NCBI GenBank assembly: GCA_030141605.1
Contig: JAQGDQ010000086.1
Location: 367,418 to 431,417, forward strand
Source: Tubiluchus corallicola
Taxonomy: Eukaryota > Priapulida > Priapulimorpha > Priapulimorphida > Tubiluchidae
Reading direction: 5' to 3'
Length of the DNA stretch: 64,000 bases
Under the pieces are notes generated by a model. That model was not told the DNA's origin and ran no database searches. It was given only the letters and a program-made list of their open reading frames with translations. The position numbers and the translations under genes were made by a program. The stretch's first letter is position 1, and the number at the start of each line of letters is the position of its first letter. Positions 1 to 52,400 of this stretch are shown here, one piece after another.

Positions 1-18589
<18,589 letters not shown>

Positions 18590-20370
18590 ATGGGACGTGG
18601 ATTGTAAAGTTTAATGCTTGATCAAACTCTGTCTTTGCAGCTATAGCTACGTATATTATTTTTAGGTTGTGTATATGAAACTCAAGCTGTTGTACTCTGT
18701 GGTCATTCATCATGCAATAATTTGATCACTTTTTTCTAAATTATAGTTCTATAATTACATTGTAAACTGTAATTTCTGCTCAAATTTGTAAATGTAAGTC
18801 AAGTTGTAGCACGAGTGCCACATTTTATTTCTCGTAGAAAAATAGTTTACTGCAGTGCAGACATGTATTTTTAAGCAGTACATTAAAAACACTAGTTTGC
18901 CAAAGGTGATCATTTTCAACACTTTTAAAGCCTTACAAACAAATTTATAATTATAATTTATAATAGTGAGATCAGTATATGGGGAAGGCAAAAACACCTA
19001 CCGTTTGAAGTGAAGAATTTAAATATTGGTGAAGGATCTGTGTTTTTATAGTGATACTTATCGGGAACTGTACATTTAATACAAAGAACAGAGCAATTTA
19101 ATACTGGCCAAGCCATTATTAATCTGCTTTTAGGTGTTTGTGTTATGTCCTGTATCTAAAAATTGTAACCAGTACATTGATTGTATTAAATAATCATGCT
19201 GAATGAACCTGATTATAGCATAGCAAGCTTAATGTTGTCTACATAAACTGATACACTCTGCATTAAAGAAACTCAGCATGCTTTCCTGGACATTTTTCAA
19301 ATTATTTGTATCAGTAAATACGTTAAATCACCTATATAGGCGTGGTACATCTATAAAAATATGACCTAGCTGTTTGTGATTTTCCCAGTGATTAAGTTTT
19401 ACTTGTGTATGTCTGCTATTAATAATTTGTGATGTATCTGAAAATGGTTATGACTGCTAAAGATATTTATATCGGTATAATTATAGGGATGTAATGAAAA
19501 TATTTATATAATTATTATTTGAATAATAATAATAATAATGTTGATACAGAAATTTTGTTTTGGCAGCTAATGACTTGATGACTAGTAGAACCGTAGTGGA
19601 AATAAGATCAATATGATTCTTTCATCATTTTGCTTTAATTTACTTTTTAAGTGAATCTGCTCAGTTCTGATTTTCTGTGTTAACTTGTATCCAGCGTTGG
19701 AATAATTAAGTCTACATACAAAGTAGCTACTTAGCTCATATTTCATTTAATATATAGGAATTTGTTTGATCCCCAGTTGTAACTTAAATGCAGTTTTTGC
19801 TCTTAAAGTACATATGCTGATCTAGAAATAGCTAGGCGTCGATATGGCCACACATCTTAGGACAATTTGTGAGCACCTGAACAATAATGTATGTACAAAG
19901 CTTTGATGTTACTAAAAAAGTTAACCATGTCTTCTGCTAAACTGTTACTTCGTGAAAACTATAGATCACATAAAAGTTTATATATCTAGAAAACTCGAGA
20001 GTCTACTTTCCTTGCACATTTTATGATGTTTACATGAAACATTAAGATCGCACCTATAGGAATTTAAAAAAAAATTGCAAATTGCCTGAACACTGGTGTT
20101 TATATGGGATCATATAATAAGCGAATCATTTGGTGGACAGAACTGCTCATGATTCAACTGCTTTATGTGGTATGTAGTTTGAAATTCAATTTGTAAAGCT
20201 GTATTTTTATATGTAGTGGTGACAAAATCATTTATACTGCATTACTCTGCAATGCCAGACACACAATCACACCTTCTGACGTGAACATGCACTCAATTTA
20301 TCACACCTTTTGATGTGTACATGAACTAATATTATGGTATAATTTAGTCAGAAACTGTGCAAACAAAGCT
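18590..20370 (+). other. 3' untranslated region and convergent intergenic DNA
   Basis: This stretch separates the kinase stop codon from the TBL3 stop codon of the opposite strand. It is AT-rich with a short AAT run near 19520-19545. I found no canonical AATAAA that clearly ends either gene. ATTAAA near 19262 is a possible signal for the plus-strand gene. Confidence 0.45.
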
Positions 20371-22863
20371 TCATTTGTTCTCAGCTACCATTCTCATACA
20401 CTGCCATGTGTAATCAACAAACATTGCCTGCTGAGTAAGTTTGTCAAGCCTTTGAAAATGTTTTTCAGAGTAGGGCAACAGCGCTTCAACTACAGATTTC
20501 ATATTTGGCATCTGCATTAGTTCATCAGTACTTAAAGTTGACAGTAGAATTGCTAAAACAGTCTGTGCTACGTTACAGTGCCTGCTGTTTGTATTCCATT
20601 CAACACTAAATCTCAGTAAGGCATCCATTTGGTCCATTCTCAGTTTCTTCACTATTTCTGCCAACTGTACCTTACCATCCTTTTGGTTCAAAATATCTTT
20701 CATTATTGTTAGCACTTGAAATGGCTGTTCCAAAGATATAGCAAGCCCGATCGCTTTGGAATATTTCTTTTCACGGAGAAGATTTGAAAGCCTTTGCTTT
20801 TGCTGTATAAGATCATCTTGCTTGGCTTGTAGCTCAACAGCTGCAGATTCGGTAACATCTTCCCAAACAATAATATTGGAGTCGTCTGCTCCAGTGACAA
20901 TAACTGATTCACCTTTACAGACACATATTGACCACAGCTTACCATCATGTTCATCAAATGTTTTAGTGCACTCATTGTATTTGATTGTCCAAAGCTTTAG
21001 CAAACCATCAGACCCAGAAGAAAGTAATTGCATTCCTTTGCTAATGAAGTGCACTTTAAGAACAGAAGCCTCGTGGCCTTCAAATGTCTTAACACACGAA
21101 AAATCAGACAATGCCCAGATTTTGACAGTACCGTCACCTGATCCTGTTGCAACAACTTGATCTACACTAGAGAAACACACTGACCAAATGCCACGGCGAT
21201 GACCATTACACACTCCAAGAAGAGAACCATCACTGCCAGCCCAGATTTTAGCAGTTTTATCATGTGAACCAGTTGCGATGAGTTTATCATTCGGTGAAAC
21301 TGCGACGGAGTTGATCATTTTTTCATGGGCGCGAACTGTGACGTGAGCATGTAACTGCTGAACTGTGCTTCCAAAACTAGTGGGAAGCTTCCAGATCTTG
21401 TACGTGTTATCCTCGCTTCCAGAAACAACAAAATTTGTTGCTAACTTAGAACTAGCTACACAGTTGATGGCATGTGTATGGCCATACCCTATTGCAACAC
21501 AAGTAATCTGACATGTGGAAGTGATATCAAGTACCTGCCAAACTCGTATGGTATTGTCTTTAGATGAGCTTACAAGTATAGAGCGGCTTTTAAAAACATC
21601 TAACGATAAAACCACATCCATGTGACCCTTTAAGAGATGAGAACTAAATGTGCTTAGTTCCACAATCTTGATGTGTGGGCTATTTGTCGCCACTGCTATA
21701 TGGCTTTCGCTCTCACCTAAAAATTTTACATCTAAAATGTCATCATTAAACCCAATAAACTGTTTGGATTGTTGCATGTTTTCAATCTTATAAGCTGTTA
21801 TGGTATGGTCAAAAGAAACAGCTATCAATAAAGATAATTGGCTATTATAAAATAACTGTGTCACAGACTGTGGTGCGGCTTCAGAATCCTTTTCTTTTGC
21901 TATCTGGTTATTTTCTAAATGTTCATCTTTTGTCTGGCTAAACACACAAGTTGAATGGACAGAGTTCCAAACTTTCAAGACACCTTTTTCACCAGCAGTT
22001 ATGAAATGAATATCATTGTTTGCTTCTGGTATATTTAATTCTTTAAATGTTTTATTCTTTTGCAGTAACACAATTCCTTCAAGACTCTCATATATAGGAA
22101 TGGTCTTCAGAGACACGAATGATTGCAAATCCCATAAAATAACCACTTTATCTCGAGAACAACTTAATAAGGTATTACCATCATCACTAAACTCCATACC
22201 AGTTGGTGAAGAAAAATGTCCTTCCAAAGTGGTTCTTGACTTGCTCTCTTTCAAATCCCACACATGTATTTTACCATCTGCAGCACCTGTCAGCAATAAC
22301 AAGCGAGTAATATCGGGATGGAATTTTGCTATTCCAACAACTCCTTGATGATTTTTAAAATTGTGTGTACAATATTGTTTCTGAAGATCCCAAACCTTTA
22401 CAGTACTGTCAGCACTTCCTGTAGCTAACAGGGTAGATGTGATATCAAAACACATGCATAAAACTGGCGCGGTATGAATTGCTCTCCAGCTGCGCATACA
22501 TGACGCGTCTTGCCATTTCCACTGCTTCAGCAAAAGATTCTTTGTGGCAATTACAAGATGTTTATCATCTGGAGTAAGGCCAAAACAAGTAACATCAGCT
22601 TCATCGTCGTCGCCTATGGTATTTACAATTTCACCACTGTGAAATTGAAGTACTTTTATCTTATTTCCGCACGTGGTAAATAATACATCACCCTTACTGT
22701 CAATTATAACGCGCCCACCTGTATAAAAAGCTCCGTATTTTCTTTTAACCACAAAATTCTCTTTCAAAACAGGTTTCAGTGTGCTTGCAAAGGAAGCAGC
22801 CATATCTGCAAAAGTGGTCGCAATAAAGAATACAAGCGGAAATGTGAAAGTGTCGCTTTGCAT
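20371..22863 (-). CDS. TBL3: TBL3/UTP13, U3 snoRNP WD40 protein of the small-subunit processome
   Basis: Intronless frame of 830 codons. Sequence follows human TBL3 end to end: an AIHTAPV segment, many WD units (VRVWD/VKIWAL type), GHTHAINCV, NDKLIATGSHDKTAKIW, GHRRGIWSVCFS, FEGHEASVLKV and LLSSGSDGLLKLWTIK. The C-terminal Utp13 domain follows (KYSKAIGLAISLEQP, EWNTNSRHC, EALLPYSEKHFQRL). The protein belongs to the UTP-B complex that acts with U3 snoRNP in nucleolar 18S rRNA processing. The more likely start is the methionine at 22803 (MAASFAST), which matches the human N terminus; the 20 residues before it have no counterpart. The lack of introns is notable in a region of intron-rich genes and could reflect retroposition or intron loss. 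Confidence 0.95.
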   Translation of the reverse strand: MQSDTFTFPLVFFIATTFADMAASFASTLKPVLKENFVVKRKYGAFYTGGRVIIDSKGDVLFTTCGNKIKVLQFHSGEIVNTIGDDDEADVTCFGLTPDDKHLVIATKNLLLKQWKWQDASCMRSWRAIHTAPVLCMCFDITSTLLATGSADSTVKVWDLQKQYCTHNFKNHQGVVGIAKFHPDITRLLLLTGAADGKIHVWDLKESKSRTTLEGHFSSPTGMEFSDDGNTLLSCSRDKVVILWDLQSFVSLKTIPIYESLEGIVLLQKNKTFKELNIPEANNDIHFITAGEKGVLKVWNSVHSTCVFSQTKDEHLENNQIAKEKDSEAAPQSVTQLFYNSQLSLLIAVSFDHTITAYKIENMQQSKQFIGFNDDILDVKFLGESESHIAVATNSPHIKIVELSTFSSHLLKGHMDVVLSLDVFKSRSILVSSSKDNTIRVWQVLDITSTCQITCVAIGYGHTHAINCVASSKLATNFVVSGSEDNTYKIWKLPTSFGSTVQQLHAHVTVRAHEKMINSVAVSPNDKLIATGSHDKTAKIWAGSDGSLLGVCNGHRRGIWSVCFSSVDQVVATGSGDGTVKIWALSDFSCVKTFEGHEASVLKVHFISKGMQLLSSGSDGLLKLWTIKYNECTKTFDEHDGKLWSICVCKGESVIVTGADDSNIIVWEDVTESAAVELQAKQDDLIQQKQRLSNLLREKKYSKAIGLAISLEQPFQVLTIMKDILNQKDGKVQLAEIVKKLRMDQMDALLRFSVEWNTNSRHCNVAQTVLAILLSTLSTDELMQMPNMKSVVEALLPYSEKHFQRLDKLTQQAMFVDYTWQCMRMVAENK

Positions 22864-22974
22864 TCAGGCTCGTTTTATTTATATTATTGCTGTTCAACGA
22901 TTCAGTGGCTCCGCCTCACCTTTTCCAAGATGAGCACCAACCTATTTAGTGTGCAAGAGCAGATTATTTTCTTC

Positions 22975-22982
22975 TGACGTCA
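22975..22982 (-). promoter_or_regulatory. Palindromic CRE-like site upstream of TBL3
   Basis: A perfect tgacgtca lies about 110 bp before the first TBL3 ATG and about 170 bp before the preferred start. A short GC-rich block (ggctccgcct near 22907) sits between. This fits a CREB/ATF-type proximal promoter, but one 8-bp match is weak evidence. Confidence 0.3.
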
Positions 22983-24481
22983 TTATATGGTCATTCCCAG
23001 TTCTGCATGCGAGTGTCACCTCACTTATCTTTGTAACAGCTATATATTTTCTTTGATTCCATAATTTCTCTAAATGCTTTTACTAATCATTGAAGGATAT
23101 ATATGTATGTTGTTTAGTCTCTATCCTTACATTATACTTACTTATTATTCTTTTCGACTTCTCACAACTTAATGCATGTTCTGTTGCATCTTCCTGAATC
23201 CTGCAGTTAGGATACAGTAAATCTTCCCATTTGTTTCCTTTGTAGTTGCATTTCAATTCTTTCACATTTAGTTAATTTCGTTATATTTATTATATCTGCA
23301 AGACCACACTCTCTGATATATCGGTGTTTCTCATATTTCTCACCATCAACCCATACTATTGGTGAGCGTAGGCCGCATAGCACCTAGATGATGTTATAGT
23401 TTCTGGTAAACGACAATGAACTGAAATAAGTGTGTCAGTTCTTTAGGCACGCACGCAACTCAAACCGCAAAAATGAAGATATGGATAATTATCATAAAAA
23501 TTATGATACTTAGCAGCTTATCAATAAATTAGTATATACGATTACGCAAGTGTACGACAGATTAAGCTACTTAGTAGGCTAAGTTGGAGTGCCTGTAAAG
23601 GGCACGTTTTCCTTAATTTTATCAAATTAAATCACTTTTTAAAATTTATAGATATTTTTCATTATAATATTCATTCAAATAGCGATTTGAATAGTTATGT
23701 TGTTTCAATATAGAATATGAATCAAATAGTTGATTCAAATAATGATTCGATTTGAATAGAAAAGTACCTAATTTGTAATCATTTAATTATGTCTGTGCTC
23801 ATACAGTAGTAGAAAATCATAGGCCTTATACGACCTATTTTGAATGGTGTGGTCCTGAAGGAGTTAATTATGCCAGATACTTATTTTTTCCGTTTTTTCT
23901 TAACTTAAAGCAACATACCCGTGATAGTTTATGAATGATAAAAATTGCTAATATTGACAGATATTGGTAGAGTTATTATTTTATCATCTTAATAATCATA
24001 CTGTTATTTATGAAGGCCTTCTTATCTTTTGTAAAAATAAAACAGCTTGCCACTGTCGCAGTTGTTGTAGTTCTTTACTTATCAAGCCTTTTCAAGATCA
24101 CTCTCTCTTAGTCGAGATGCTGATAGTTTGCCTATAGGTTACATTATTTTCGCCTTTTTGCTGGCTTTGATATTTTTGCTTATAGAAAACGTCGACCAAG
24201 TAATCTTTTAAAACTGAATAATTTATTTGACTACTGCAATTGTGATAAGTATAATTTTATTATTTTCGTTAATACTGTATGATGTTATACAAATAGAAGG
24301 ACCCCGACGTCAACGTTTTGTGTTAAACTAATCAGTCACTTAGCGGCCATTTTAAATTGTCGAACTTTTTCAAGGTCGAGCTTTTTTGGTTGCCTCGTTC
24401 ACACTGTAGTGCTAAAACAATAACATAAATTTTTAATCATAAAAATTCAGGTGTCAGGCTCAACTACATAAGCGATTACAG
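22983..24481. other. Intergenic DNA, no gene recognised
   Basis: AT-rich region upstream of TBL3. It includes a low-complexity stretch near 23650-23760 with repeated gatttgaat/attcaaat words. No exon, RNA gene or clear mobile element was seen. Confidence 0.5.
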
Positions 24482-24759
24482 GACGTGAAATTATCAATCC
24501 ATCCCGACGTGTAAATGATGATAATGGCGTTTATACGTTGACTAGTAAAATTGCAAAAGATTTGACGCCGCGTTCCGTAATTGAACCGCACTTTCAGACA
24601 GTTGAAGACACAATTCATTCCTCAGTTTCCAGACAGTTTCTCCGACTTGTACAGAAAGGCTGTCATTGGGCATTAAACGAAGAACTGTACCCACTTTTCC
24701 GACAATCTAAGAAAAGTAAGGTTAAAAAGATTACGTTGCAAAGCACACCAATTAAATAA
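24482..24759 (+). CDS. Unassigned open frame, possible isolated exon or gene remnant
   Basis: An open frame of about 92 codons follows a gattacag acceptor-like site and ends at TAA. The residues look protein-like and helical (KIAKDLTPRSVIEPHFQTVE, then SRQFLRLVQKG and ELYPLF). The pattern weakly recalls the last helices of an RGS domain, but the key motif is not clear enough to name it. No partner exon was found on either side. It could be a terminal exon of an unseen gene, a decayed duplicate or chance. Confidence 0.3.
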
Positions 24760-26600
24760 AAGCGCCCAGATGAGTAGTTGCACGACAACTGGTTGACTTA
24801 TTAACAGTTTTCCTTTGTTACGTAGTACTTGCAAAACGTTCGAAGTTATTTTAATGTTGATCATTGTGATTTTCATGTGCATTCGTTTGAAATAATGCTA
24901 CTATAATTTACCATTTTCATAGATTCGGTCCAGATGCCATTTTTCGCTTGAACGCTTCTTACTGTTTCTAAATTGTCACAAATGTGTACCATGTCGCCTA
25001 CTTGTAGCATCTAGGAATAAACAAGGTATTGTTTGTTTAAGAGTCTAATAGAGTCAGTAACAGAGTATATTACGCCAATAATATAATATATATTTGTGAT
25101 TTTACGTATGACGTTGAATGTCTGACTCAAGGTTGTTAAAAGCCAAAAGTATATAGACGGATAAGTCAAACTACATGACATATGTGAATGAAATTAACCC
25201 GAATTTGGTGCAGGCCATTTGGAGGGTATTTCATAATCGCTTTCACAATGCGTTTGTCAGCCGACAGGTTACGGAAAGAAATAGGCTGGTGATCTCAGTC
25301 CGCCCCGGGAAGCCAGATTATAGATACCTGGTAACTTAGTAACATGCAGACTGAATCTTGTAGGATTTGGTGCTGTTGTTATAAACAACTTGTTGATTGG
25401 GACTGAGCCAGAAACCAGAGACTTGAATTTTGCATCTCTGGTAGACAAAATTATTCAACTGCAATGCTATACGAATTATATCGTGTAATCTTTTGTATGT
25501 TAAACGCAGCAGAGGCTGATTTGAATGCAACTTTTTAAATTGTGTAATAATTATTTTTTTGCTAGAAGTATGTTGTATTATTGTCTACAACTTTTTGTTT
25601 TGTTTTTTCAATATTGCCTAGAGTAGTGTTGGATTGTAATCTTCATGTACTTTAACTCACTGTAAAATCGTTTATTAAAATTTTATTATATAATTATATT
25701 ATATTATGAAATAAAATAATTAATTAACCAGCTACACATTCACAACAGCGATAAAAACATGTTCTAATGCCATTCAATACCAGTGTGAACATTAAAACGG
25801 TAGGCTAAAACTCGTAAATACGGCAGTTGTAATAGCGATGAAGCCAGTTATGGCAGCAACTGTAGCAGAAACAGCGTCAACAATAGCAAAAGTAGCAGCA
25901 GCAGCAGCTTGAGCGACTATCAATATCATCAACGTCACAATTTCGCATTGTGTGTGTTTAGCAGTAACGATGCAGTACCAATAGTACCAACAGTGACGGC
26001 AGTGGCGCTGTTGCTATTACAGTGCAGCAGCACGTTACATTACACGTTTGCATTTACCTTCACAAAATTACTTTTTCAACAAAAAACTACTTACTGTTTT
26101 TTTATGTTTAACTTTTAATACTGAGTTTTGATCTACCATGGTCATAAAACTGTAGTTTCTTCGGAACTTGAGTGCATCTTGTTGCGTTGCTGGAAATATT
26201 GACAATAAGTCATCAAATTGATGATATTTTGGTATTCTTGTCAACAGGCAAGTCAACCATACCAAACAATAGCCAGGAAAACATATTAAACAGTTTTTAT
26301 AATGTAAGTAAAACAAAACATAAAAAACTATATTTTTTCTTTCTTTCTTTGGAGAATTTGAACTTTTTTAAGCCGCATTGAAATCTTCAAATATTGCACT
26401 GTTTATTTTAAATTTGGCATTATTCAGAATATATGCATCTAATTTCATGGAAAAATTATTCTAAGTTGAAGGGAAATAAATTTTTCAAGACTTTTTTAAG
26501 AATTTAAAGAAGGGGTTTGCCTTTTTGTGTCCACCTGTTAAATTTTTACTAAGTGATTTCGGTGACGAAGATGTTGGAACTTCATGGCAGTACTGGGTAG
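24760..26600. other. Intergenic DNA with degenerate triplet repeat
   Basis: No gene recognised. Bases 25825-26035 are rich in imperfect (RNY) triplets such as agcagc, caacaa and gtaaca, similar to the tract at 33810-34010. A possible polyadenylation signal for the mind bomb-like gene (aataaa on the minus strand) is at 26402-26407. Confidence 0.45.
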
Positions 26601-26639
26601 AATGAAGCTGGTACTTGATGGGATGAGTACCATAATGAT

Positions 26640-27076
26640 AGTGATTGTAATGGCACACATAGTTGCACACCTGACCCGTGATGAAAGGCATAACAGTGAT
26701 AATGGGAATTGTGATGAACACGCTGACGTGTAGAGATTGACAGTGACACCGTGTTGGTGTTGCAAAACCTGTTTCTCCATAATAACGGCAATGACAATGA
26801 CACAGTAGTGGTGATGTGAATTGCCTGTCCCTATTAATGACACAGTGTTGTTGTTGTGAAATTTACCTCTCTCTAATAGTGACAGTGATAATGACACAGT
26901 GTTGGTGTTGTGAAACCTGACTCTGCCTAATGATGACAGTGACAATGACACAGTGTTGGTGCTGTGAAACCTGACTTTACCTAATAATGACAGTGACAAT
27001 GACGTAGTATTGATGTTGTGAAGCCTGCCTCTCCCTAATGACACATTATTGGTGTCGTGAAACCTGCCTCCGCCTA
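26640..27076 (-). repeat. 54-bp minisatellite just downstream of the mind bomb-like stop codon
   Basis: Several imperfect tandem copies of a 54-bp unit (for example taatgatgacagtgacaatg... followed by acacagtgttggtg...). The best-preserved copies run from about 26860 to 27070. Because 54 is a multiple of three, a minus-strand frame stays open for 168 codons and repeats a SLSLLGRVRFHNTNTV-like unit. With no homology or conserved start, I treat that frame as a by-product of the repeat, lying in 3' flanking or 3' UTR sequence. Confidence 0.65.
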
Positions 27077-30000
27077 CTAATAAAGTGATAAATGATAAAT
27101 GTTGATCAAACGCCCGTATTGATTCATGTTTTTTGCTAACACTAAGACTGGGTTACCTAATTCTTCCCACTGTGGCAATGCGGCTGGATAAATCAAGCAA
27201 TCTGGATTAAAAGTCCAACTTCTTTTCCCAAATCTGACTTGAACGTCTCCATTCTTGTCTGTGCTTTGGATTTCAACCGTTTGTCCCAGTATCTTTAAGA
27301 GAAACAACATGTTAGCTTTGTGTAGGGCGTATTTTCACTGTTAACTATTTATTACCGTGTTTTAAACAACACAGGTTTGACATTTGGCGGCGTTTTTTGA
27401 ATCCACAATTGCGTCTAGTGCCTCATAGTACAACGTCTTAAACTTACTGATAAACCTTTGAGAAACTGACTTATCATAAAGTGAAAATGTCAACATTCCT
27501 GGGCAGGATATGCATGGACGGTGGCTCAAGCATTTACTTTCGTTGCTAACCTGTCGGTTTAACAAAGCTGTCACTAAGTTAACGATGTCGTTATTATATT
27601 CACTTACTTATTAACAACGACGTCGTTAAGTTAATGACGGCTTCCTGAAACTGGGACCTGTTTAATAACTACATTCTATACCACATTATACTGTATCGTA
27701 CCGTATGGCGCTGTGTCGCACCATACCGTACCGCATGGTATGGCAGTCACTATACCATGTCCTATCTTGCCGGCACTTACCTCTGACATACCATCCTGCC
27801 AGCCTCCATGACCATATTGTAATCTCCTAACCCTTTCTTCCCTGTTGATAACTAACACGATATCGTTTTCATCAAATATCTACAAATGAATGAGTTTGTG
27901 AATACATGGACATAATTACGTGGCATGCAGGTATGCCAGTGTGTTGTCATAAAATTAAAGTTTTTTATGAAGTTGATGTCGGTGGGATGGTGATATTTAC
28001 CGGTGTTAAGGCAGCTGGATTTATTGAGTAAGTCTTCCTTAGACCAGAAAATTCGACCCAGACGTTTCCTGTCTGATTTTGGGCCACCACTGTGCCTTTT
28101 CTCCCTAAAAAGTACCTCGTTTGCTCATACCATGCGCCATGTCCTCCCTGAAGCATTCTGAATACAACTGGGTGACTGATGCACTGAACTTTACTATAGT
28201 CAGTCAATATTCGTTCTCCAACTTCTTTACTAAGATGAACGCCTGAAATTAATAACTGAATTTCAACAAATCGCGAAACAAGTAATTAATTGCTTTGATG
28301 GGCGAAGGCGTGTACTAGCTCAATCATTGGGCTTTTTTGGTCTGTTACTTTGTTTGTTGTTGCCGTACATCAACTTTTCCGTAATTTGTAACGGTTGCTG
28401 AAAATTATGCTGCCTGTCTTCTTTGACACACGCGTTTCAAATAATTATGAAGAAATAATAGGAAAAGGAGGTGTTAACACAGTCAAGTTTTGAGTCTTTT
28501 TTTAACCACACATGTAGGCCTTGCATGAAACATAGGTATGTATGATAAACAGCTCCGTACATACATGATACATATTTTCAATGCACAAGAGTCACATTTC
28601 GTTAACAAACTTATCTCATTGTATTTATACAAACGCATTTTCTTTTTATAATGCATTTTAGCCTATGAAGTGCTTCATAAGTAAACCAATTTTAGTAAGA
28701 GTAAAAGTTAAAGTATTCCTAAGAGTAATTCTTATTATTGCAGTTTCAAACGTGACGTCTGTAATAATAGTTTTTAAGTTTAATCTACCCAGTATTGCTA
28801 GGTGGTCAGGATAGTAATTCCAACCAAACGTTGCCGTCTTGAATTTGAGATCCACTTTTCCTTGAAGACCTACTCGACTGCTGGAAATCTTGCCGGATGA
28901 CTTCCAAATTACCATTACCTTGCTGCGTGCGGTATGGATGTGGTACTTCTGGCTCTGAATAAAGTCGTGTGGTTCGATTGACTTTACAAGACCACCATCG
29001 GACGCTACAAATAATTAAGAACTGAAGTCTACTAAAAAAACTTGAATTCGACAGCCGCAACAATTTTCACTCTTGTTTTAATTTGTATTCTCCTATAATG
29101 GAAAGGAATTGCAGATAAAGTTCATCAATGCAGCTGTAACTAAGCTAAATCAAACCCTTCGTTATTTTTCGTCATATCTGGACCAATTATGCTTTGCACC
29201 GTTTGACAGAGAGAACATACAACAGAGCTTACTTTAGCTGGAAACTTGATATTTGTTATGTTTATTTTGTAGACCGATCTGAGCTGTCACACATTCTATA
29301 CTGCTGCCTTCGAAATCTAGTATTGTGCACTTTGATCTCTGTTTGCATATTGAACCATAAAGAGAATTGTGCAACTATGCGAATACAAAATGATTGTCTT
29401 ATATTCATAGTCTACTAATATGAAGTATTTTTTTGGTTTTAGTTAACAGTTAGTTAGTCTTATTGTCTTAGAGTCTTATTTAGAGCATATGTGGATTAAA
29501 TAGTTTGAAGTTAGAGATTTATAAATATTTTATTAATTTCAACTTTTATAGTTAATTGTTGTGAACTTATGCACTAAACTTTTTATTAGTAGAGAGCAGT
29601 ACTGTGTGGTTTTTTGTCGGGATTAGCATTTTGCATTTCGTAATGGTGACTTGTTGTAGTTATACGATGTAGTAGCTATTATACACGATTCTTTGCTACT
29701 AGATAGCAGCACTGCAAATGTTTAGACTTTAGATCATTCACGTTTGAGTTTTGACTGGGTTTTCACACCTCATTGCAGTTGTCTTTTTATTGTAGCTGTA
29801 CACTTTCATGCCCCGAAAGGTGTTTATGAAGTGAAATAAATTCGTGTTCGTAGATGTCTATGCAATTATTTAGAAAAAAAACAATATCCGGCGATATTTT
29901 ACCGTCGGAATAGTCGCCTTCCCAATCTAGACCAGGAACCACTCCTGCTCCTAGGAAAATTCCTTTTGCTCGGATAGTAGCACTGTTTCTTCTTCTGGGA

Positions 30001-31295
30001 ACTTGTACTCTGCATTTAAACAGCAAAGTAAACATTTATGTTAAAGTGCTGGCAATTTATGCAGTCTTCCTTTTTGTGCAAAGCTGGCGCTAATAGATAC
30101 TAGTGAAATCTTAACAGTCTATGAATACAATTAGGAGCATTAAAGTACACCTCCTGGTATGGGCGATCGGTGTCTCTTTTCTGCTAAAAAGATAATTTCT
30201 AACTTATGCGTTCTTCGAAAATGATACTGTTTGTGCTCTATATATGCATTTTTACCTCATGGCGTATTGATGATCAATTCTAAAAAATGCGTGGTCAACA
30301 AAGTGTTGATTTGACATATAGCACGGCGTACAAAGGTCGTAGTTCGGACATTCCACACAAGTCCATCTTGTACCTTTTACCCCTATTTCCTGACAAGCGG
30401 CGCAATTTACGCCAGTATGTTCGACACCTGGAAAATGACGTTTGATTTAATGGTATAGCGCAATTAAGAAAAATTAGTGCATTTAAAATTTTTTAACAAG
30501 ACGCAAGGAAATGCGCAAGTCATACCCGAGGCAATTGCACAGGTGTTGTGTGGTTTTGGGTTCCCAGTAGTTTGTTTTTCAACAAAACAGCATATTACAC
30601 GGTATCAGTTTGTCACTTTAAATGCCACTAAGGTGTATTATGTGTAAATAAAGCAATTTGAATTTGACTCGGTAGTAAGTTCAATTTCGTCATTATAGTT
30701 TATATTGCGTCATTAAAAATCTTATATTATAGGTTTGAGGTGACCACATATGAGAACACAAATTGAAAAACAAAGTTGCTGTATTAACAATGTTGATTCA
30801 CAATACCAAACTGAAGTTCCTTTCTTAAACAATTTTTATTTACTTTTAAGCCCCAAAGCATGTCTGACCAGAGGTCTGTCGGGGGCTGGTCTGTGTGAGA
30901 TCTAATCCATCAAAGATCTGAATGGGCTGGATTTAGTCTTCCAGACTCAACCACAGACTATTTTTTTTATAATGCAGCATTTTCTGTGACATAACATTGC
31001 ATTGCTACACGACAACCGGTTTGTTACGTAATGAATTTAACGGTTTTCTACCTTTCTGCGCCGAGTCATAAAGCATCAAGTCATACTTTCCATCCGCACC
31101 AATTCTGTACTTTCCAGTAGTTCCAGAATCCCACAGGACATTGACCACACCTGATCGATCGTCTGGGTGAGATTCCTGCCCTGTTAAATAAATGGTTGTT
31201 CCCACAAAGCCTTCACCACCATCCTGGTTGTCATAATTCCAATCCGGACCACGAACAACTCGAATTCCTGCTGGAATCGCGTGTATGGTTCCCAT
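27077..31295 (-). CDS. Mind bomb-like protein without ankyrin repeats or RING fingers
   Basis: Eight exons (31052-31295, 30256-30427, 30151-30180, 29903-30009, 28789-29004, 28001-28242, 27781-27879, 27077-27292) join into 441 codons plus stop. Domain order equals the N half of MIB1. MIB/HERC2 unit 1 has RVVRGPDWNYDNQDGGEGF, then comes a ZZ finger (CAAC, CVEC, CTPC, then H and H). MIB/HERC2 unit 2 is diverged (GAGVVPGLDW; RVGLQGKVDLKF aligns with RVGFEGMSDLKC). REP 1 has GGHGAWYEQ and SINPAAL; REP 2 has YGHGGWQDGM and SWTFNPDCL. In MIB1 this half binds Delta/Jagged tails, while the missing half carries E3 ligase activity. A stop follows REP 2, and no ankyrin or RING sequence was seen down to the TBL3 gene. 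The ATG at 31295 sits eight codons before the first domain, as expected. Function as a ligand-binding decoy or modulator is inference. A missed downstream exon after a possible donor (gtaacc in exon 8) is the main alternative. Confidence 0.82.
30151..30180 (-). CDS. 30/33-nt microexon with NAGNAG acceptor in the mind bomb-like gene
   Basis: The exon lies between the ZZ exon and the second MIB/HERC2 exon, phase 2 at both ends. The acceptor reads ttttttagcag, so splicing at either AG gives 30 or 33 nt, both in frame, and differs by one serine codon. The donor is gtgtac. It encodes a short basic linker (KETPIAHTRR). Skipping it keeps the frame, so the linker length may vary. Confidence 0.55.
30256..30427 (-). 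CDS. ZZ-type zinc finger exon of the mind bomb-like gene
   Basis: The exon encodes paired C-x-x-C motifs (CAAC, CVEC, CTPC) and histidines (QHFVDH) typical of ZZ fingers. WTCVECPNYDLCTPCY lines up closely with the WKCAECTNYDLCTVCY segment of MIB1. All zinc ligands appear intact, so the domain is probably folded. Confidence 0.85.
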
Positions 31296-46400: not shown

Positions 46401-49400
46401 GTAAGATCTTTATCAAGGAAGGTATTTGTATAATGAATCTGTATAATTATTTGTATAATTGACTTTCCACAGACAGGTTAACTAACATACTTTTTACACA
46501 ACAAGTGTAAAAAGTTTTACAAGACATTGTGAATGAAGCATCTGATCACGGTGACACTGAAACAATTGAACTGACACATGAGTCACATCTCCAACCAGAA
46601 ATTGTTATCAGAGGCAGAAAATGAGACAGGGACGAGCTGTTGAAATAAACGAAATAAAGACATTCATTAGACTTAGTATTTTAACAAGACTTCATACATC
46701 TTGTCGTGAGCCTGTTGCATCACTGTTGTCACATAAAGAAGTCAAACCAATCTTTACTGCAACCATACCTAGAAGTAGACTCAGCAGTATTTTGAAGCAC
46801 CTCAGATTTGATGTGTTCATGGGGCAACCTAAAATGTTTTAAAAACATTTTCACCAAAGCATTTCCAAGCTGCCCGAAAAGGTTCAATCATTTTAAAACC
46901 GTTTTGCACCAAAATCCTTCGAGGGGTCAGACATCAACCATGCACACAATGTGTCTTCTGTTTGTTTTGAAAATTGTTTGTCCAGTGACCATGTGAAACT
47001 GTCTGGCCAATTGAAAATGCTTATACATAGACAAGCAATCTTGATTTTTAGAATGAAATAATTCAGAAAACATCATAAATATCACAATGTCAATGTAAGT
47101 GGTATGATCGAAAATGTCAAATATGGGTCCCAATGCTGCCATTTTTCACAAAATGCAGCCAAGGCCAGAATTTTTTATAGACATGTGTTATAGTGCAGAT
47201 TATAGTAGTTTATGCTAACAGGTCAAAGCCAAGCAATATTTAACTATCAGAATTCGATACTGTAGGATGCATACTATTTTCGCAAGTTGCGTTACAAACT
47301 TTTTAAAGGTCAACGCTAAGAACATTTAGCCTTTAGAAAGGACCATTGGTACTTTTGCTGAAGATCAGAGATCCAACTAATGACAATAGTGAAAGATGGT
47401 GCTTGCAGCAAAAGGAAATTAAATTAACACCAAGCTTGAGGTGTCAAACACTGGTACAATTAGTTCAGCGTGGGAATGGTAAGTGTCTGGGAAGTGGTAA
47501 CACTATAACTCATTAAGATGAAATTTAGAATACCCAGAAGCTTAAAAACAGTACAGAAACGAACTCGTCCAAAACTCAACTTTGTAATACACACTTTCAC
47601 AAGAAGAAATGACAACAGAAAACAACAACAAAAAAAAAACAAGTACAAATCATCTCAACTAACTAAAGCAGGATAGCAACAGCTAAACTGTATACACGAG
47701 TTTCCATAGCAACATGTTATCAGATTCATAACAACCGACAGACAAGTAAGTATGCTGCATGATGCCATAGTCCGCAGATGCTTCATTAAATTTTCAGTAA
47801 AGTTTTTTATTGCAAACGGCTTAGTACTGGCAGCCTGTGAAGCACTGTCGATATGCAGAGATTACCCAAATGTCTCTATACCAGAGACAGCAGAAAAACA
47901 TTACTGGTACAAATTACCAACACCGAAAGAGAATGAAGCATTCTTTGGCAAATGGCTAACTAATTATCCAACGGTTTTTTCTATTAGCAAAAAAACTAAT
48001 GGCATATATGTTGTTGTACAAAGAGACATCAGAACATGGCTTACAGAAATGTCCGAAGTTTTTGACCCAGGAACAAAACTTAAAGAAAAGCCAATCAAAG
48101 TAAGTGGCAGATGCCGTTCGGGACAATTGAATGATGACCACATTGAAAGAACCATAGAAATCGAAATAGTGATAGTAAGCTATAACTTCTTTCCGCCACA
48201 GTTTTTAGATGATACGCCAGACGTGATCATTGTACCTGAATTCACCTCGATTGGAACCACTCTGCAAGTAGTAGAAGCAAAAGACTCCGACCTTTTGCCA
48301 CCGAGTAACGAGATCATCTTCACTATGGGTATTCAAAAATCTTTTTACTTTGACGTTGTTCAAACAGGAGCTTCTCAAGCCAAGGTTATCCTGAAGAGAG
48401 AAGTAGACTATGAAAATCATGCCAACGGTACGCTGCATCTGTTTGTTCAACTTAATGACAAAGGCGTAACTCCAAATTCAAAACAGAATTCAGAGCGGTT
48501 CACGATCAAGCTCATAGACGAGTCACTAAACCCAAAGTTCACAAGTGTTTGGTATCACACAACAGTAAACAATGATGCACATACATCAACAGAACTTGAC
48601 ACCTACCCAACACCAGTGAGAGCGGTCGATGGAGAGACAATGAAATACGATGGCCGTTTGACGTACTCTTTAGTAAACACATCCCAACACTTCACAATGG
48701 AGCAAAAAGGTGAAGGAGCAATAGTGAAGGTTGGCCCAAATGGTCTGCCTGAGTCGGAATACACATTAACAATTCGAGCACAGGTGGACGAGTACCATTT
48801 CACTGATGCATTCTTGACAGTAATAGTGAAGCAACCGAGCAAACCACCAATATTTCTACTGAAATTTTACAAGTTTAATGTTTTGGAGAGCATGCCAGTA
48901 GGGAGGTGGCTCTCGACAATTCCCATCATTAACCAGGGACCTGACACCATTGCGTTTACTCTTATCACACGTGATATAAATGCAACAAATAAGTTTATGA
49001 TTACACCAAAAGGGTTTCTACTTGTAGCAGCTAAGCTGATTCCTGGCGTGTTCAACCTAGCCGTAAGAGCAGATGTTGGCCAACATTCGGGGTTTGTGAA
49101 CATTACACTTACTGTACTAGAAGGATTCGATAAAAATCCAAAGTTTTGGAAACCTGAATATAATTTCGTATACAAGAGATCACTTCCATCAACTTTAAAG
49201 GTAAACGCAACTTGCGCAGGGACAAAAAGTGCTTTGGATTACTCAATACTTGGCTACAGTAACCGTTTTAACATCAACAAACATGGAGAAATTCTAGTAA
49301 AGGTTGAGGATTTGAGCAACACGGCAGACCATTATTTTGAGTTCAGCGTAATTGCGTGCTGCACCCGTGGGGTGCTGTCCGCAGGGGAAGACCAACGCTG

Positions 49401-52400
49401 TAATTCAACTCTGGCAAAGCTTCTCATTGCATCAGGAGGATCGATTAGAAGAGGTCACACACGGCAACAGAATGAGCAAAAAGTGAAAAGGACCAAGAAG
49501 GAAATTACAATTACAGTATATACTTTTATTGCAGTAATGATAGTTGTCATAGTTCTTAACACTGTATATTTATTATACTTAAGAAGAAAGAAGCACAGTC
49601 AGCTGGAATAATCATCAGTTAACACTTGGATAAAACTATCTGAAAAAAATAATGTTCCAGAGCAAAATTATGGTATATATAATCAGCTGTATCTCTGAAA
49701 TGTTGGGCCTTCATGATGGAAATCATGAGAATTGTAACATTAGCAGACTTTGTAGTCTTATACTGCAATTAGGGGAAAAAACGGTTTATTTTTTATTTTT
49801 GGCATCAAGACAAATCGAACTGAATAAGCCTTTTCACAGTTCCAGCGATTGATGATGATCGTTAAAAGGTCAAAGGTTAAGTGTACCAGACAACATATTT
49901 GTGATCACTTAACAAAGCCTTGCAGCCCATGCTACGGTAATAGTAATAGTTTTAACAGCTAACTAGAACCTTACCTAGTTCATTTTTTCTTGATCCCAAG
50001 TAAGATCCCATAGTAAATCACTCTATGCAGAGACTAATGCATAATTAAGTAAAGTTTATATAAAAAACTGACGGTTGCTGAACTGATGTGGCAGACGGCC
50101 TTGGTTTACCCACACATCACATGACCATTGTAGTTAAGACGCATTGCTGTGGTGCACTTAACCTTTCACCTGCAGCAAATGTGCATGCGCACAGCAGAAC
50201 TGTGAAAAGGCTTGTTGCAACAAACACACATTTTGGCCAGATCTATTGTAGCAGACCAATAAAAAGCCGAGACTGAACACAGAACATTTCAAGTTAACAA
50301 CAGTGTTAACAGTTAGGCTAGTTGAATTTACTAAAACGAAGAAAAAATTAATGCTTGTAATACTGCACAGCCACCAGAATTTTTATTACATTAAATCAAA
50401 CATTCGCTTCATCCCAAGGTGCAAATAGAACACACTGTCTTCCTGAAGTTGATTGTAATTGTTCATACTTGTTCAATACAGGAATGCGTAACCTTGAAAC
50501 ATCACGTTAATTGAATATCACATGACACTGACGATAGTCACACACACTTACTTAATATAAAATATTCAATTGTTCCCAAACTTATAAGGGGTTTGCTTAA
50601 ACTATAATGCTTTTCTTGGAATGAAATACAATCATATTTGCTTTGCCGGAAATCGCATTTATGGATGTTGGAAAATTCGGACAAAATCTGGTCCGAGGAA
50701 AGTCCCGCGTACTACAGACATAGTCCATTATTTCGCGAGTTACCGCTAGTTGGCGGGCTGTCACTTTGATTACATCAAAACAGCATGTAACGACACGTGT
50801 AGCTTGTATGTCAGCGTGTTTAGAAATTTTAATCAGCATTTGTAAGTGCTTTAGAGTCAATTATGCGGAGTTATTTGAGCCAATTGCCGACAGTTTTTAT
50901 ATACTTTTGTATAGGAGCGGTCCATACTAGGCGGTTTTGAGTCAATTAGACAATTGATTCTACATTACCGCGAGTCTAATACACGGCAGCTAATATATTA
51001 GCTTAGTATCGGAAAATACGAACAATCGGCAAATTCGGACAGACATTTCATCACTTTTGTTCGGCAAACCTAAATATGTATGTATTACAACAGTTAAGTT
51101 TCTGCTTTACAAAGTTCGTGAAGAGGCTTGGTTTCGTACCTTGACCCTGTAGTAGTCCCAACGTGTCATCAAAATGCATAGCTTTAATATTCAATGATGC
51201 CAATATAGCTTCCTTATCTGCAAGTGTTGGGTCTTCTATTCCAGCAACTTTTGCAGACAGAATCACACACATATCACATAGGTTAACATTTACTGCACGC
51301 AGATCAGCCCTGCTCAGTGGCGAACCCTACAAACAAACGAACATTCGTCAGAAATCAGAAATTTAAGTGGTGAATTTGAAACGAATTTACAGTGAACACC
51401 CAACTTACGAATAACGGTAGCACTTTAAAGTGTTTGCAATCAATAGTACAGAGCAGTACTTGAGATTATCACAAACAAATAATTACATTTTTGGTACTGT
51501 AGTGCTACCGGGTGGCATAGTTACCGTCTGTCTGCTTCCATGTTGGGAACTCGGAGTATTTTGCACATGTATAATGTACAAAAGAGTTGCACAACACATA
51601 AACAATATTCTGTATTACCAACAGTTCAACATGCAAAAGCTCATCAGACAAGTTAGTGCAGTAGCTACTGTATCATTTACTAGTAAATACAGGCACAGGC
51701 AACCCATAATGCTTTTCGGACAATCCTGCCGCGACGTCATTCGCAATATGCAGCCGAGGTCTGGCAAGTGCAGATACAGAACCGCAAATGTTCAAAATGA
51801 GATGAGATCTAACACGTTTTATTAATTCATATAGTTGAGCGCATAAAAACTGGGATATTCGATTTCATTGTTTCTTTTCTGCTTACGTTGTTGATTTTCA
51901 TAATTATAAAAAATGACTGGGCATTTACTTAAAAATGTTTAAGCAAACACATACCTTGGTGTTTAAAGTAGTTTACCCACATTATTTATTACCCAGGTCT
52001 AATATTTTTATCAGTTAAAACAGAGAATTTAAATTTTCTATGCCATCAATGAAGCATGCAAAAGAAACAGCAAGCAGGGAAATAATCAGGGAGATGACAG
52101 ATCAAATCACTTTTGTTGTCGGGTTGACTTACAATAAACAAAGTATGATTTCTTTACCGTGAGGTTAATTACCCAATTAATTGTTTATTAACAATTAGAA
52201 ATATATTTCAGGCCACTAACAAAGATATGAATGAACGGACTGATAAATTTAACAGCACACAAAAAGATAATGTATATTATTATATTCCCGTAATCACTAC
52301 GTTGTACTGGTAGTGCCAGGCGTAGTACCTAGGCCGGCGTAGCTGACTCATTGATAAAGCATGCAATTAAATAATTAAGAAGCTTGTTAGATAAAAACTC

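Follow-up and report, generated by a model that had tools for sequence, protein, structure and literature searches.

Mind bomb proteins couple recognition of the Notch-ligand tail to a ligase. The window analyzed here, a 64,000-nucleotide stretch of DNA from Tubiluchus corallicola, raises the question of whether one natural gene can carry the recognition half only: an earlier note described at this locus a mind bomb-type gene of eight exons, with the domain order HERC2-ZZ-HERC2-REP-REP followed by a stop, and suggested that its product could act as a decoy or scaffold.

This minus-strand gene begins with the ATG at 31295, which a TAA in the same frame precedes by 9 bases. Ten proposed exons, running from 31295 to 24542 and joined throughout by GT-AG splice sites, form a single frame of 524 codons that ends in TAG:

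Exon 1, 31052..31295, minus strand: start codon and first MIB_HERC2 (aa 10-76); Pfam, upstream stop, residue conservation.
Exon 2, 30256..30427, minus strand: ZZ zinc finger; Pfam; length (172 nt) and phases as in the MIB2 exon.
Exon 3, 29903..30009, minus strand: beginning of the second MIB_HERC2; length (107 nt) and phases as in the MIB2 exon.
Exon 4, 28789..29004, minus strand: remainder of the second, diverged MIB_HERC2; Pfam.
Exon 5, 28001..28242, minus strand: REP1 (SH3_15), without the mid-repeat intron of MIB2; Pfam.
Exon 6, 27781..27879, minus strand: first half of REP2; Pfam; boundaries as in MIB2.
Exon 7, 27157..27292, minus strand: second half of REP2; Pfam; GT donor at 27156.
Exon 8, 26095..26189, minus strand: proposed linker exon, uncertain; splice signals.
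Exon 9, 24912..25010, minus strand: first half of REP3; Pfam SH3_15, 4tse alignment, codon usage.
Exon 10, 24542..24706, minus strand: second half of REP3, with the TAG stop at 24542; Pfam SH3_15, codon usage.

Exons 1-7 are supported by domain matches and by comparison with MIB2, and exons 9 and 10 by the SH3_15 match, the alignment to 4tse, and codon usage. Exon 8 encodes no domain and has slightly negative codon usage; its splice signals are the best among the phase-compatible candidates, and its inclusion is a weak guess. Skipping it (exon 7 to the acceptor just before 25000) keeps the frame and gives a protein of 489 aa, and the domain architecture is unchanged with or without it. The split between exons 9 and 10 falls at a repeat-internal phase-0 site that is also used in REP2 of this gene and in both repeats of MIB2.

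The coding sequence had previously been taken to stop at 27077. We rejected this end in favor of splicing at the GT donor at 27156 (GTAACC); reading through that donor gives a protein of 431 aa, which could at most represent an intron-retention isoform. Onward splicing from this site into exons for ankyrin or RING domains had been raised as a possibility: in the model, exon 7, which ends at 27157, is spliced further, but toward a third REP. A 54-bp minisatellite (window 26836-27039, 3.8 copies, 84% matches) lies in intron 7, just beyond the 27077 stop.

In the predicted protein, Pfam identifies two MIB_HERC2 domains, one ZZ domain, and three SH3_15 domains (mind bomb repeats), in the order HERC2-ZZ-HERC2-REP-REP-REP, vs. 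two SH3_15 repeats in MIB1 and MIB2. The MIB_HERC2-ZZ-MIB_HERC2 order of the mind bomb recognition module (MZM-REP) is present according to both Pfam and the alignment to 4xi6, as originally read; exons 9 and 10 add the third REP. The best match among solved structures is the MZM-REP of human MIB1 (4xi6; E = 1.2e-67, residues 9-392), and residues 437-499, comprising the third repeat, also match a MIB1 entry (4tse), aligned to MIB1 REP2. The claim of intact ZZ ligands and REP signatures is borne out: all eight zinc ligands (C90, C93, C105, C108, C114, C117, H123, and H127) are in place, and SH3_15 is recovered three times.

Conservation within these domains is uneven, when measured as the residues identical in MIB1 and MIB2 that the gene retains. 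The first HERC2 retains 29 of 38 such residues and the ZZ domain 18 of 23 (76-78%). The second HERC2 retains 22/38 (42% lost), REP1 14/29, and REP2 18/36, so that 42-52% of the shared residues are lost across the second HERC2 and the repeats; for this reason, the binding partners may have changed. In the second HERC2, the arginine of VVRG and one conserved tryptophan are replaced. The loss of this arginine agrees with the earlier description of the domain as diverged, but the QDGG motif that was described as missing is not simply gone: the exon 3/4 junction reads SDASDGG. Collinearity favors REP3 as a candidate for the extra repeat, while a tree of the seven repeats groups them otherwise, placing REP3 with MIB REP2, and REP1 and REP2 with MIB REP1 (support 0.77-0.92).

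The ligase half was sought downstream and across the window. Pfam and tblastn detect no ankyrin or RING sequence in the 1.7 kb between the gene and the neighboring UTP13 gene, nor elsewhere in the window, in agreement with the earlier report of none downstream; ankyrin and RING pieces of MIB1 and MIB2 give no significant tblastn match in the window, and Pfam searches of the minus-strand frames of 18001-27150 return, apart from a trace of REP3, only the WD40 gene UTP13. Coding ends before the point at which the ankyrin and RING portions of MIB1 and MIB2 start. Because ankyrin and RING sequences were looked for and not found, the window gene does not qualify as an E3 ligase of the mind bomb type.

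This conclusion would fail if ankyrin and RING exons were hidden, either by lying far away or through a gap or misassembly. Introns of several kilobases do occur in this genome (MIB2 intron 1 is ~6 kb), but the last exon carries a stop codon (TAG, 24542) that is followed by poly(A)-type AATAAA signals at 24261 and 24227, and UTP13 begins ~1.7 kb downstream of the stop on the same strand. An assembly gap combined with the absence of any other MIB gene had been named as something that could undo the claim; there is no N within the window, and complete MIB1 and MIB2 genes lie elsewhere. When the ankyrin-RING end of MIB1 was searched against the genome, no orphan third MIB-type RING set appeared, although a missing match of this kind is not proof. 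A hidden ligase half is therefore considered quite improbable.

The neighborhood of the gene contains several other features. The UTP13/TBL3-type WD40 gene directly downstream is intronless (window 20371-22863, minus strand; Utp13 domain E = 9.6e-45). Between it and the window gene, short frames at 23083-23380 (minus strand) resemble retroelement debris by eye; they have no Pfam match. Further away, at 47710-49611 (plus strand), lies a single 633-aa open frame that encodes one cadherin domain (E = 2.5e-8); close to the end of this frame, visual inspection suggests a transmembrane segment. Glutamine-rich, low-complexity frames at 4259-18589 (plus strand) look by eye like the tail of an AAK1/BMP2K-type kinase; this resemblance has no Pfam support.

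Complete mind bomb genes are encoded elsewhere in the genome, as the proposed search for separate MIB genes reveals. MIB1 (C1949) is 981 aa long, with ankyrins, three RINGs, and two REPs, and includes one open frame of 888 codons; it is nearly without introns past the ZZ domain, unlike the many-exon MIB2. MIB2 (C1744) comprises the MZM, two REPs, ankyrins, and RINGs across ~22 kb. Because both are complete and no orphan RING set was seen, the window gene comes on top of a full complement of mind bomb genes. Its descent and its recognition module place it in the mind bomb family: it is a diverged, intron-bearing third paralogue consisting of the recognition half only.

Its introns bear on its origin. 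Up to the end of REP2 the gene has six introns, and each falls at the position and in the phase of a MIB2 intron: three in phase 1 (after the first HERC2, within the second HERC2, and after the second HERC2), one in phase 2 (after ZZ), and two in phase 0 (at the REP1/REP2 boundary and within REP2). This exceeds chance. In addition, exons 2 (172 nt) and 3 (107 nt) are equal in length to their MIB2 counterparts. The window gene lacks the intron that MIB2 has in mid-REP1, and the two 5′ introns of MIB1 are at sites other than those of the window gene. A retrocopy was considered and rejected because of the six coincident introns. Amino acid identity over the MZM-REP region is 142/367 with MIB1 and 144/378 with MIB2 (~38-39%), vs. 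188/366 (51%) between MIB1 and MIB2, and this measure favors neither MIB1 nor MIB2 over the other as the parent. The intron layout suggests a gene structure of the MIB2 type, a pattern that could also be ancestral. The gene most likely arose through DNA-level duplication of a gene that had introns and the exon pattern of MIB2; the 3′ half is missing from the window gene, and one repeat is additional. It is either old or fast-evolving, and no relatives were found among viral contigs and bacterial and archaeal genome contigs.

Such divergence might also be expected of a decaying or unexpressed duplicate, and the gene is indeed shorter than MIB1 and MIB2, more diverged, and burdened with one weak exon. 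However, 1575 nt remain free of stops and frameshifts at ~38% protein identity to the paralogues, every splice site is GT-AG, the ZZ domain has kept its ligands, and the three repeats have kept their SH3_15 signatures. Because the frame, splice sites, zinc ligands, and repeat signatures survive such divergence, neutral decay is not expected, and we regard a pseudogene as very improbable. The earlier observation is partly confirmed: the gene exists and most of its description holds, but the 3′ end given for it was wrong.

What the protein may do is suggested by its relatives. Notch ligands are bound at their N-box by the MZM of MIB1 and at their C-box by its REP (PMC11887331); MIB1 without its RINGs (aa 1-767) still binds ligand and is dominant negative (PMC5945229); and the MZM plus REP of MIB2 suffices to bind FAT1 (PMC10082778). 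From these precedents, a natural MZM-REP protein is expected to bind without ubiquitinating. The genome contains five DSL-domain (Notch-ligand) matches, and Notch ligands are therefore available for binding. Two of these matches lie ~19 kb apart on one contig (C1377, 1584-20893) and are perhaps tandem Notch-ligand genes.

The demonstrated anatomy, intron homology, absent ligase half, and complete MIB1 and MIB2 elsewhere are best explained, in our view with moderate confidence, by a real, intact recognition-only paralogue with three repeats that would bind without ubiquitination and compete on shared partners. We infer that its product is expressed, binds, and competes as follows. The protein would recognize a short peptide within the cytoplasmic tail of its partner, a membrane protein that could be a Delta/Jagged ligand, a FAT-like cadherin, or one specific to the lineage; the bound partner would not be ubiquitinated by it; and where that partner is common to MIB1 or MIB2, competition would dampen endocytosis. 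Non-catalytic competition with MIB1/MIB2 is plausible; however, the dominant-negative MIB1 construct still had its ankyrin repeats. A more specific form of this proposal, in which the genome encodes a non-catalytic competitor for Delta/Jagged tails as a natural counterpart of the dominant negative, giving the lineage a further inhibitor in the cell that sends the signal, is offered only tentatively and is rather doubtful.

Ligand binding may instead be lost or altered, given the divergence of the second HERC2, REP1, and REP2. The gene might then encode a neofunctionalized peptide-binding scaffold unrelated to Notch, a plain adaptor with another partner. The third repeat is compatible with this alternative, as is the uneven loss of residues shared by MIB1 and MIB2: about half are gone from REP1 and REP2 and 42% from the second HERC2, against retention of 76-78% in the first HERC2 and ZZ. 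MIB2 already has a REP-dependent non-Notch partner (PMC10082778). Against it, the architecture and zinc ligands are intact, and divergence by itself does not demonstrate a new partner; we consider it possible, yet the less likely account. A non-catalytic binder is favored, with competitor and re-targeted adaptor both live. The earlier interpretation is partly supported, in that its core claim of a recognition half only survives and the decoy function stays conjectural.

In the literature searched, no study emerged that had tried an isolated MZM-REP protein as a Notch-ligand decoy, and none that described a RING-less or third mind bomb gene occurring in nature, which does not show that there is no such report; similar short MIB-like predictions may exist in large annotation databases. 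A natural recognition-only gene with a third repeat would separate by evolution two functions that are otherwise joined. It could reveal a regulator of ligand endocytosis, and with it one could ask directly whether Notch ligand activity is dampened when binding is not followed by ubiquitination. Should its partner prove to be a different one, the MZM-REP module would be reusable as a plain peptide adaptor.

Among known systems, HECTD1-type genes (the HECTD1-like C1209 and probably C215, a related ligase) share the MIB_HERC2 domain with the window gene, but have one MIB_HERC2 per site, where neither a ZZ nor an SH3_15 match was found. Engineered RING-deleted MIB1 (PMC5945229) likewise has the recognition domains without RING; unlike the window gene, it is a laboratory construct (aa 1-767) that keeps the ankyrins, judging by its length, and has two REPs and an undiverged sequence. 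MIB1 (C1949; human 4xi6/4tse) shares the order HERC2-ZZ-HERC2-REP-REP, at 39% identity, and differs in having ankyrins and three RINGs, two REPs, and 5′ introns placed elsewhere. MIB2 (C1744) differs in its ankyrin repeats, RINGs, and two REPs, with 38% identity over MZM-REP, and shares with the window gene the order of MZM and REP, six intron positions and phases, and the lengths of exons 2 and 3.
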